From Geodermatophilus obscurus (lineage in GTDB: Bacteria > Actinomycetota > Actinomycetes > Mycobacteriales > Geodermatophilaceae): a stretch of DNA of 64,000 bases. The notes beneath the pieces were generated by a model, which worked only from the letters and a program-made list of their open reading frames with translations, ran no database searches and had not been told where the DNA came from. The stretch's first letter is position 1, and each line of letters starts with the position of its first letter. The position numbers and the translations under genes are program-made. The DNA lies in NCBI RefSeq assembly GCF_900143215.1, contig NZ_FRDM01000001.1, positions 248,001-312,000 of the forward strand, written 5' to 3'. This document shows positions 60,258-64,000 of this stretch, piece by piece.

Positions 60258-60516
60258 CAGCGGACGATGACACGCCCTCCGCTTCCGCGCCTCGGTCCGC
60301 TCCTCGCTCGCTGGCGCTCGCTGCGATGCTCCCGAGCCTGTCAGCGGACGATGACACCTGTCCGCTTCCGCGCCTCGGTCCGCGCCTCGCTCGCTGGCGC
60401 TCGCTGCGATGCCCCTCGAGGGCGGCTGTCAGCGGACGACGACCCGTGTCCGCTTCCGCGCCTCGGTCCGCGCCTCGCTCGCTGGCGCTCGCTGCGATGC
60501 CCCTCGAGGGCGGCTG

Positions 60517-60517
<1 letters not shown>
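60258..60517. repeat. Three tandem copies of an 84-88 bp unit at the selD 3' end
   Basis: Units begin at 60258 (84 bp), 60342 (88 bp) and 60430 (88 bp), each with CAGCGGACGATGAC or a near copy. That sequence also occurs at 60518, where it is the complement of the last selD codons (VIVR). Each unit also holds CTCGCTCGCTGGCGCTCGCT, which can fold on itself. The array arose by tandem duplication that includes the selD end. Confidence 0.9.
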
Positions 60518-61536
<1,019 letters not shown>

Positions 61537-61559: not shown

Positions 61560-61652
61560 GGAGGCGTCAGGGTGTCTGGTGGCCCCCGCGGCCTCTAAAG
61601 CCGACGTGGCCGAGCATCTCGGTCAGGCGGGTTCGATTCCCGTCCGCCTCCG
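61560..61652 (+). tRNA. selC: Selenocysteine tRNA with anticodon CTA (reads UAG)
   Basis: A 93-base tRNA between selD and selA. Acceptor GGAGGCG pairs with CGCCTCC (the next pair is U-C); D-stem of six with GG in the loop; T-arm GCGGG-TTCGATT-CCCGT; long variable arm GGCCGAG-CAT-CTCGGTC. These are tRNASec features, and the location fits. The anticodon stem CGGC/GCCG closes the loop CTCTAAA, so bases 34-36 are CTA. The normal tRNASec loop is CTTCAAA with TCA. CCA is not encoded. An anticodon CTA pairs with UAG, so Sec would be inserted at UAG. Such tRNASec(CUA) has been reported from Geodermatophilus and Blastococcus. Confidence 0.92.
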
Positions 61653-61727
61653 CCGACCCCGCCCGCCCGCGGGCCGCCGTCCCGACCGGGGCGCGGCCCG
61701 CCAGGGCCGCGGGCACCGGCTGCGACC

Positions 61728-61741: not shown

Positions 61742-63052
61742 ATGAGGAACGACCCGCGGCGGCAGGTGCCGCGCACCGACGCGTTGCTCGCCGACCCGCA
61801 GCTGGTCGCCGCCGCCGACCGGCTGGGCCGCGACCTGGTCAAGGCGGCCGTCCAGGACGTCCAGCGGCGCGTCCGCGACGGCGTGCTCGCCCCCGGCGAC
61901 GCCGTGCCCGCCGTCCTGGCCGCCTTGCCGGCGACGGCCGGCAGCCTGCGGCCGGTGCTCAACGCGACCGGCGTCCTCGTGCACACCAACCTGGGGCGCG
62001 CGCCGCTGTCCCCGGCCGCGGTGGCGGCGGTCGTCGCCGCCAGCGGCACCACCGACGTCGAGCTCGACCTGGTCACCGGCCGGCGCGGACCCCGGGGCGA
62101 GGCAGCGCTGGCCGCGCTGGTCGACGCCGTCCCGGCCGCGGAGGCCGCCCTGGTGGTGAACAACTGCGCCGCCGCGCTGGCGCTGGTGGCCACCGCGCTC
62201 GGCGGCGAGCTGGTCATCGCCCGCGGCGAGCTGGTCGAGATCGGCGACGGCTTCCGCATCCCCGAGCTGCTCGAGGCCACCGGTGCCCGGCTCCGCGAGG
62301 TCGGGACGACGAACCGGGTCGCGCTCGAGGACTACCGGCGCGTGCTTGGCCCCGGCACCGGCGCGGTGCTCAAGGTGCACCCGTCGAACTTCGTGGTGCG
62401 CGGCTTCACCCGCTCGGTGCCGGTGGCCGAGCTCGCCGCGGGGCTGGCCGGCAGCGGGGTCCCGCTGGTGGCCGACGTCGGCTCCGGCCTGCTGCGCCCG
62501 CACCCGGTGCTGCCCGACGAGCCGGACCTGCAGACCACCCTCGCCGACGGCGCCGACCTGGTGCTGGCCAGCGGCGACAAGCTGCTCGGCGGGCCGCAGG
62601 CCGGGATCGTGCTCGGCCGCGCCGACCTGGTGCAGCGGCTGCGGCGGCACCCGCTCTACCGGGCGCTCCGCGTGGACAAGACGACGCTGGCCGCGCTGGA
62701 GGCCACGCTGCGCGGCCCGCAGCCGCCGGTGCAGCAGATGCTCGCCGCGGACGTCGACGGCCTGCGCCGCCGCGCCGCCGCGGTCGCCGCCCGGTTGACG
62801 GTCGCCGGGCTGGACGCGGTCGCGGTCGACTCGCAGGCCCGCGTCGGCGGGGGAGGGGCGCCGGAGCACCCGCTGCCCAGCGCCGCGGTGTCACTGCCCG
62901 CCGGGTTCGCGGTGCCGCTGCGCGCCGGGACGCCCCCGGTGGTCGGGTACCTCGCGGGGGACCGCACCCTGCTCGACCTCCGCAGCCTGCGCACCGAGGA
63001 CGACGAGGCGCTGGCCGCCGCGGTGCTGGAGGTGGCCCGCCGGTGGACGTGA
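61742..63052 (+). CDS. selA: L-seryl-tRNA(Sec) selenium transferase
   Basis: PLP enzyme of 436 residues that turns Ser-tRNASec into Sec-tRNASec. Family blocks are RPVLNATGVLVHTNLGRAPLS, VNNCAAALAL, EIGDGFRIPE, HPSNFVVRGF and the PLP lysine in SGDKLLGGPQAG (Lys280). It must recognise the unusual tRNA, but SelA is known to read the body of tRNASec and not the anticodon, so no change is expected. It overlaps selB by 10 bases. Confidence 0.97.
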   Translation: MRNDPRRQVPRTDALLADPQLVAAADRLGRDLVKAAVQDVQRRVRDGVLAPGDAVPAVLAALPATAGSLRPVLNATGVLVHTNLGRAPLSPAAVAAVVAASGTTDVELDLVTGRRGPRGEAALAALVDAVPAAEAALVVNNCAAALALVATALGGELVIARGELVEIGDGFRIPELLEATGARLREVGTTNRVALEDYRRVLGPGTGAVLKVHPSNFVVRGFTRSVPVAELAAGLAGSGVPLVADVGSGLLRPHPVLPDEPDLQTTLADGADLVLASGDKLLGGPQAGIVLGRADLVQRLRRHPLYRALRVDKTTLAALEATLRGPQPPVQQMLAADVDGLRRRAAAVAARLTVAGLDAVAVDSQARVGGGGAPEHPLPSAAVSLPAGFAVPLRAGTPPVVGYLAGDRTLLDLRSLRTEDDEALAAAVLEVARRWT

Positions 63053-64000
63053 TCGCGACCGCGGGCCACGTCGACCACGGCAAGTCCACGCTGGTCCGCG
63101 CGCTCACCGGCATGGAGCCCGACCGGTGGGAGGAGGAGCGCCGCCGCGGCCTGACCATCGACCTCGGCTTCGCGTGGACCACGCTGCCCTCCGGGCGCCG
63201 GCTCGCGGTCGTCGACGTGCCCGGTCACGAGCGCTTCGTCGGCAACATGCTCGCCGGCGTCGGCTCGGTGCCCGCCGCGCTGGTCGTGGTCGCGGCCGAC
63301 GACGGCTGGTCGGCGCAGACTGCCGAGCACGTCGCCGTCCTCGACGCGCTCGGCGTGCGGCACGCGCTGCTCGCCGTCACCAAGGCCGACCTCGCCGACC
63401 CCGCCCCGGTGCTCGCCGACGTGCGCGAGCGGCTGGCCGCGACCTCGATGGGGAACGGGCCGATGGGCGAGGTCCCGGGGGTGGCGGTCAGCGCCGCCAC
63501 CGGCGCGGGTGTGCCGGACGTCGTCGCCGCGCTGGAGGCGGTGCTCGCCGGGTTGCCGGCGCCGGACCGGGACGCGCCGGTGCGGCTGTGGATCGACCGC
63601 GCCTTCCCGGTCACGGGCGCCGGCACGGTGGTCACCGGGACCCTCGCCGCCGGCCGCGTCGCCGCCGGGGACCGGCTGCAGCTCGGCGACCGCGAGGTCG
63701 GCGTCCGCGGCGTGCACTCCCTGGGGCAGCCGGTCGAGCGGGCCCAGGCCACCGCACGGGTGGCCCTGAACTTGCGCGGCACGTCCGTCGAGGAGCTGTC
63801 CCGCGGTGACGCCCTGCTCACCCCCGGGGCGTTCCGCTCGACAGCCGAGCTCGACGTCACCCTGGCCCGCGCGCCGGAGGACCGGCTGCCCGCGGAGGTC
63901 GTCGTGCACGTCGGCTCGGCCGCGGTCGGCGCGCGGCTGCGCCCGCTGGACGGGGCGGCGGTGCGGCTGCGGCTGGCCACACCGCTGCCGCTGCGGGTCG
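63043..64000 (+). CDS. selB: Selenocysteine-specific elongation factor SelB (3' end outside the window)
   Basis: GTPase that carries Sec-tRNASec to the ribosome and binds the SECIS hairpin. The visible 319 residues hold the G domain (IATAGHVDHGKSTLVRALTG, RGLTIDLGFAW, DVPGHERFVGNMLAG, TKADLAD) and the start of domains 2-3. The winged helices that bind SECIS lie beyond the window. GTG 63043 is chosen because it gives the usual length before ATAGHVDHGK; GTG 63049 is the alternative. Confidence 0.96.
   Translation, partial: MDVIATAGHVDHGKSTLVRALTGMEPDRWEEERRRGLTIDLGFAWTTLPSGRRLAVVDVPGHERFVGNMLAGVGSVPAALVVVAADDGWSAQTAEHVAVLDALGVRHALLAVTKADLADPAPVLADVRERLAATSMGNGPMGEVPGVAVSAATGAGVPDVVAALEAVLAGLPAPDRDAPVRLWIDRAFPVTGAGTVVTGTLAAGRVAAGDRLQLGDREVGVRGVHSLGQPVERAQATARVALNLRGTSVEELSRGDALLTPGAFRSTAELDVTLARAPEDRLPAEVVVHVGSAAVGARLRPLDGAAVRLRLATPLPLRV

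Follow-up and report, generated by a model that had tools for sequence, protein, structure and literature searches.

The tRNA gene near the end of a 64,000-nucleotide stretch of Geodermatophilus DNA (the window) is very probably the selC gene of a species in which the code for selenocysteine (Sec) has moved from UGA to UAG. We put the probability of this reading, which draws on sequence comparisons within and beyond the family Geodermatophilaceae, at about 95%. The observation at its base is confirmed, in that a complete tRNASec gene lies between selD and selA.

A complete tRNASec gene within a Sec module

The window spans G000:C48:248001-312000 of a 5.24-Mb genome (99.7% complete, 112 contigs). 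A Sec module in the order selD, tRNA gene, selA, and selB occupies its end, with the following features:

60517 to 61536, minus strand: selD, selenide water dikinase, 339 aa (TIGR00476, 382.8 bits)
61560 to 61654, plus strand: selC, tRNASec with a CUA anticodon (RF01852 match at 61560 to 61651; ARAGORN)
61592 to 61600, plus strand: anticodon loop including the closing pair (comparison with tRNASec of the family)
61595 to 61597, plus strand: anticodon CTA, complementary to UAG (sequence, ARAGORN, and loop pattern)
61742 to 63052, plus strand: selA, L-seryl-tRNA(Sec) selenium transferase, 436 aa (TIGR00474, 408.9 bits)
63043 to 64000, plus strand: first part of selB, Sec-specific elongation factor (place, length, and plasmid modules)

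Both selA and selD scored above the cut-offs of their family models. The name selB is based on place, length, and the sel modules of plasmids; the gene passes the end of the window and is complete on the contig as an open frame of 586 aa (G000:C48:311043-312800). The arrangement given in the original prediction, with selC between selD and selA and selB in the same set, therefore holds, by the TIGR models for selD and selA and by place for selB. The SelD of the window has Cys at what we take to be the position where some SelD proteins have Sec. The closest SelA to that of the window came from Geodermatophilus africanus (93% identity). A tandem repeat at 60258 to 60537 (period 88, 3.2 copies, 91% matches) extends into the 3′ end of selD, and the end of selD is thus echoed downstream.

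A cmscan search returned a full-length tRNA-Sec match at 61560 to 61651 on the plus strand (RF01852, 65.1 bits; gathering score, 47; E = 5.5e-11) that covered all 91 model positions (1 to 91). ARAGORN placed the gene at 61560 to 61654 with anticodon CTA and labeled it tRNA-Pyl, a label that we ascribe to the CTA anticodon. The covariance model and the anticodon at 61595 to 61597 thus bear out the predicted tRNASec with a CUA anticodon, and two structural details of the prediction were also recovered, namely the loop CTCTAAA (61593 to 61599) and, in the RF01852 alignment, the long variable arm. The UCA anticodon, which is usual for bacterial tRNASec though not defining, is absent, and CTA stands in its place. 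A C-G pair closes the loop; within the family, the seven tRNASec with TCA have U-A at this place. Discriminator G73 is present (base 61652, 3′ of the acceptor stem), and the 3′ CCA is encoded only in part, as CC followed by G. The RF01852 alignment also gave a long D stem with a 4-nt loop, with a few nonstandard pairs overall; in what would be the 13-bp acceptor/T branch, two acceptor-branch positions lack standard pairs.

A second tRNASec with a TCA anticodon, which the original prediction had set against itself, was looked for genome-wide. The whole-genome RF01852 search, in which 150 of 1,264 first-look candidates were scored, found no further tRNASec with this or another anticodon. The other match above the cut-off, on C27 (48.2 bits), was rejected as a second tRNASec because it is an ordinary tRNA-Ser(tga), and the six matches below the cut-off were Gly, Ser, Leu, Ser, Thr, and Met tRNAs. 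Given the completeness of the assembly, its 112 contigs, and the share of candidates scored, a missed copy is unlikely but possible.

Predicted selenoprotein genes with TAG at the Sec site

Three predicted selenoprotein genes of the same genome carry an in-frame TAG at the Sec site: formate dehydrogenase (FDH) alpha, a UGSC-family protein, and a fusion of thioredoxin-reductase-like (TrxR-like) and UGSC domains. The FDH alpha gene on C27 encodes 1096 aa (NF041513, 1919.9 bits) and has one in-frame TAG, at residue 187, in the context QIENQARI-U-HSATVPGL. On C52, a UGSC-family protein of 180 aa (NF041046, 143.3 bits; cut-off, 125) has TAG as the U of UGSC, as does the 479-aa fusion frame on C83 (L195:686-2122). 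The TrxR-like part of the fusion fell below the cut-off of TIGR01292 (146.6 bits; cut-off, 343) and above that of PF07992, and its UGSC part scored above the cut-off of PF24696 (122.9 bits) and below that of NF041046 (104.1 bits).

Selenoprotein families in which the Sec site is a TAG with a hairpin behind it, as the prediction would have them, were thus found in three genes. Its other counter-indication, TGA selenoproteins in the absence of TAG ones, was not seen; the Sec codon is TAG in all three genes and TGA in none. These sequences support the interpretation that Sec is read from UAG in this genome. The stricter wording "UAG, not UGA" stands for the genome as far as it was searched and may fail in some relatives (Geodermatophilus sp. 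LHW52908, discussed below). Under the standard table the FDH and UGSC frames end early at the TAG; together with the tRNA-Pyl mislabel given by ARAGORN, these cut frames are a warning for annotation.

Two frames that follow the C83 fusion gene look related to each other by eye, and the C52 UGSC gene is preceded by a frame similar to them. That preceding frame matched no NCBIfam or Pfam family at 0.001.

SECIS hairpins

A hairpin lies 3′ of the TAG in all three genes, with a five-base loop (GGUCU, AGUGU, or AGUCU), seven closing pairs, and the apical loop at nt 22 to 26, counted from the T of TAG. SECIS stretches were gathered with a filter for the loop plus at least five pairs, and the FDH and UGSC loci that were read lost none of their TAG sites to it. 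Across 24 distinct TAG sequences, taken from FDH and various UGSC types, pairing holds in 94.6% of cells, although many of these cells reflect few events because the alignment mixes gene families. Both sides had changed in six of the seven pairs, and none of the 500 shuffles and no slid control reached the covariation score. The count of further pair types does not stand out, since 118 of 500 shuffles reached it. In a smaller, picked set of 14 sequences, 90.8% of cells pair. The folding energy of single stretches was unexceptional compared with shuffles (z = -1.75, -1.48, and -0.50; z = -0.96 for a longer FDH stretch).

A covariance model built from 14 sequences was searched over the whole genome of the window. 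Its three strong matches (46.6 to 54.6 bits; next match, 24.5 bits) were exactly the three TAG genes, partly by construction, since the model holds two of the three sequences exactly and close kin of all. Among the 17 weaker matches (24.5 bits or less; 150 of 16,747 candidates scored), none had a TAG with the loop motif and full stem. Because the model was built from such sequences, this result counts against more selenoproteins of that type and not against other selenoproteins. The model matched at E = 1e-4 or better in at least 98 of 112 family genomes.

Codon and anticodon across the Geodermatophilaceae

RF01852 was found in 108 of the 112 family genomes (E = 1e-9 or better), and the other four had no match. 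The CTA form of tRNASec, detected by a loop-to-T-arm pattern, was present in 101 of the 112 genomes and the reversed control pattern in none, so chance is not a reasonable alternative. The remaining seven genomes with tRNASec all belong to genera g5 to g7, and all read TCA.

The codon followed the same division. With at most six candidates scored per genome and stops tallied by hand, FDH gave 126 matches in 100 of the 112 genomes (E = 1e-100 or better), and one TAG was in frame in each of the 118 matches that cover Sec residue 187. At the 34 FDH loci read, TAG was the Sec codon in every case. Three of the 118 matches (in G024, G009, and G029) have a TGA besides the TAG; mixed coding was rejected for them because this TGA lies 902 to 905 aa past the Sec site, at the natural gene end, which comes 910 aa past the site in the FDH of the window's genome. 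Eight partial matches made up the rest, six without a stop and two, both in G079, with one stop each (a TGA and a TAG). UGSC proteins gave 95 matches in 54 of the 112 genomes, and by hand tally 72 of these had one TAG, 23 had no stop, and none had TGA or TAA. Ten stop-less loci were read; five had Cys in the motif (L129 to L131, L203, and L212), and a motif search did not find the motif in the other five (L200, L201, and L208 to L210). In the nine g5 to g7 genomes, a relaxed FDH search recovered homologues that carry a single TGA; these came from four genomes, each belonging to g7, and have the TGA at the Sec site and the same loop spacing as in the TAG genes. Both states of the Sec code thus survive in one family, UCA/TGA in some genera and CUA/TAG in the rest.

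Several records stood apart. Genome G079 has a CUA tRNASec, and both of its FDH copies (L274 and L275, on C12 and C4) lack the Sec-codon stretch and are frameshifted there, reflecting either loss or an assembly error at a hairpin. Genome G070 has FDH fragments with internal stops. Two CTA tRNASec with unlike variable arms (L114 and L115) occur in one 88%-complete draft genome (G037), which is perhaps a mixed bin. A record named Bacillus sp. AZ43 (UNVERIFIED_ORG; L045) has a CTA tRNASec and a SelA that falls within a Blastococcus group, and it is probably misnamed.

Alternative readings of the tRNA and the TAG codons

A CUA anticodon is shared with tRNAPyl, and the ARAGORN label could be taken to mean that the gene is a pyrrolysine tRNA and UAG a pyrrolysine codon. 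We regard this as extremely improbable, since the gene matches RF01852 at full length above the cut-off, sits between selD and selA, and differs as a set from the TCA tRNASec of the family at just four positions, and since the TAG codons stand at the Sec sites of known selenoprotein families. Another proposal is a general amber suppressor that inserts Ser at any UAG, a role for which unconverted Ser-tRNASec would in principle be available. The hairpin at fixed spacing in all three TAG genes found makes such a role highly unlikely. The affinity of EF-Tu for Ser-tRNASec also argues against it, being about 100-fold weaker than that for Ser-tRNASer according to the relevant passage of PMC7609411.

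It might instead be supposed that the TAG genes are pseudogenes with chance nonsense mutations and that the tRNA is a relic. Decay does occur in the family, as the two FDH copies of G079, both broken at the Sec site, and the FDH fragments of G070 attest. A TAG that is in frame in 118 of 118 FDH matches covering the Sec residue, however, and a codon that varies together with the anticodon (in the g5 to g7 genomes and in a plasmid FDH) leave this account a negligible chance. All three proposals were weighed and rejected on the RF01852 match, the sel context, the hairpins, and the uniform TAG.

Proposed pathway and origin of the code switch

A selC with a changed code thus remains the preferred reading. 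What was seen here is the tRNA with its sel genes, the hairpins behind in-frame TAGs, and a codon that differs between genomes along with the anticodon. Charging, conversion, decoding, release-factor competition, and enzyme activity are inferred from what is established about the pathway, whose course would be the standard bacterial one. SerRS would load tRNASec(CUA) with serine, and SelA would turn Ser-tRNASec into Sec-tRNASec with selenophosphate from SelD. SelB would then deliver Sec-tRNA(CUA) to a UAG that has a SECIS hairpin after it, where the competitor would be RF1 and not RF2. A UAG with no hairpin would remain a stop.

Only four tRNA positions split 58 CTA rows, which count some genes twice because two collections were used, from the seven TCA tRNAs of the family, some of which are identical. 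Two of these positions are the first and second anticodon bases, and the other two form the stem pair that closes the loop (C-G in CTA, U-A in TCA). The smallest visible set of changes is two anticodon bases, one stem pair, and one codon per selenoprotein. The enzymes that handle tRNASec are described in part of PMC7609411 as not binding the anticodon arm, and E. coli tRNASec with altered anticodons decodes many codons, as summarized in PMC10778597. Because these enzymes ignore the anticodon arm, the switch may have required no more than the two anticodon bases, the one stem pair, and new codons in a few genes. A likely path would start from a genome that had one to a few selenoproteins and whose anticodon and codons both changed within a short time, and a compensatory change of the stem pair may have accompanied the two anticodon base changes.

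In a SelA tree of 81 rows, made with a quick method and midpoint rooting, a single branch (SH-aLRT, 100) sets the 46 CTA rows apart from the rest; the change count omits nine of the 81 rows, for which the fetched DNA gave no tRNASec call. The TCA call of ARAGORN for L081 was rejected as false, its sequence not being a tRNASec, so the TCA rows number 25 at most and not 26. The two TCA members of the family on the tree (L084 and L104, from the G072 and G074 contigs) group with other families. Given this placement, the tree yields one code boundary and not the order of events or a UCA ancestor of the family. L079, which gave no tRNA call, adjoins the CTA group.

Relation to known systems

Mukai et al. 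(Angew. Chem., 2016) reportedly confirmed UAG-Sec in Geodermatophilus and Blastococcus by labeling or mass spectrometry. Section 17 of PMC5330540, which cites the primary report, describes three Geodermatophilaceae genomes with a CUA tRNASec and matching Sec-TAG genes for FDH and UGSC proteins, and the same source reports a Sec-TAG AhpC in Blastococcus saxobsidens. The literature named in the original prediction is therefore right in substance, as that section covers the same family, and the window adds one more genome to a code variant already described. The present case shares the CUA anticodon, the family, and the Sec-TAG FDH and UGSC genes with the published ones and differs in being another genome. 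UAG-Sec is thus not new at the family level, and the value of the finding is as a clean comparative case and as a lead to the use of two codons. Beyond the account in section 17 of PMC5330540 are the counts over 112 genomes, the UCA/TGA lineages in the same family, the four tRNA positions, the fusion of TrxR-like and UGSC domains encoded with TAG, and a relative that has a second tRNASec. Marine metagenomes have already yielded the UGSC family and a fusion that contains it (PMC2398784), and the passages of that paper on UGSC name no TrxR-like fusion.

Elsewhere, PMC10778597 summarizes how UAG, UAA, and ten sense codons have been reused. The UGU-decoding tRNASec of Aeromonas salmonicida covered there likewise pairs a non-UGA Sec codon with a matching anticodon, but its Sec codon is a sense codon, whereas that of Geodermatophilus is a stop codon. 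In comparison with tRNAPyl, the CUA anticodon is held in common, whereas the selC of the window scores as tRNASec and sits among sel genes.

The conjugative Arthrobacter plasmid pYA7-1a carries a whole module (fdh, selD, tRNASec, selA, and selB). Its FDH is 64% identical to that of the window's genome over an alignment of 1080, with Sec codon TGA at the same site, and the anticodon of its tRNASec is TCA. This standard UGA-Sec module has the same gene order around selC and a loop-like stretch in FDH at the same spacing but reads UCA/TGA, whereas the window genome reads CUA/TAG. It is the cleanest control, the same kind of protein and residue with another codon and another anticodon. Within the family, the two code states offer matched pairs for testing how SelB, SECIS elements, and release factors cope with a change of codon. 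FDH-selD-tRNASec-selA-selB modules were seen on plasmids of Arthrobacter (conjugative) and Tsukamurella (L270:1-9279, L271:1-9200, and L277), where the Sec trait forms a movable unit.

A relative with two tRNASec genes

Geodermatophilus sp. LHW52908 (G058) has two tRNASec genes by RF01852, one with CTA (65.3 bits) and one with TCA (81.8 bits). We lean slightly toward the reading that this strain has regained the old code as a second one and would read Sec from both UAG and UGA in one cell, the latter by way of the UCA tRNASec and an AhpD-like gene with TGA. If it does use both codons, it offers a natural test of whether horizontal transfer can restore a lost codon meaning. Titles and abstract openings in a partial search of the open-access literature announced no two-codon Sec genome.

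The UCA tRNASec lies at C17:1173-1263, on a contig other than that of the CUA tRNASec. About 0.3 kb away and divergent from it is the AhpD-like frame (C17:1579-2154; tRNA and frame together, L105:1169-2157), which has 192 codons and one in-frame TGA. Its peroxidase-related product scored above the TIGR01926 cut-off and has the motif CFY-U, with the TGA at CxxU. Homologues matched in 51 of 396 phylum genomes searched, LHW52908 included, and the best 12 matches in other genomes (10 genomes) had one TGA each. Of 30 such loci fetched, 26 were readable at the motif, with TGA in 13 (LHW52908 included) and Cys in 13. A hairpin (ACGCAG-AGUUU-CUGCGU) lies 3′ of the TGA; its loop is two bases closer to the codon than that of the TAG genes, and its folding energy is not unusual compared with shuffles (z = 0.22). 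LHW52908 also has a TAG-FDH and a TAG-UGSC gene. One SelB was found in it, a second match being weak (37% identical over query residues 4 to 265), so both tRNASec would depend on the same elongation factor.

The first 20 kb of C17 contain transposase frames, some recognized by eye, and an ALIL element. These nearby insertion sequences suggest a mobile cassette of selenoprotein and tRNA, whose codon meaning came with it into a host that had dropped that meaning. A chimeric assembly is possible as the source of C17. Contamination is countered by matches of its 20.8- to 26.4-kb region to the genus and by the G+C content. This region matches G. sabuli DSM 46844 (G053) in several pieces at 80 to 92% and in others at 68 to 75%, and 16 of 26 Geodermatophilus genomes match it, mostly in one piece at 66 to 69%. 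The G+C content is 0.76 in that 20-kb part and 0.61 to 0.68 in the first 6 kb, where the tRNA and the AhpD-like gene lie. With these genus matches and this G+C pattern, C17 looks like Geodermatophilus DNA with a foreign insert.
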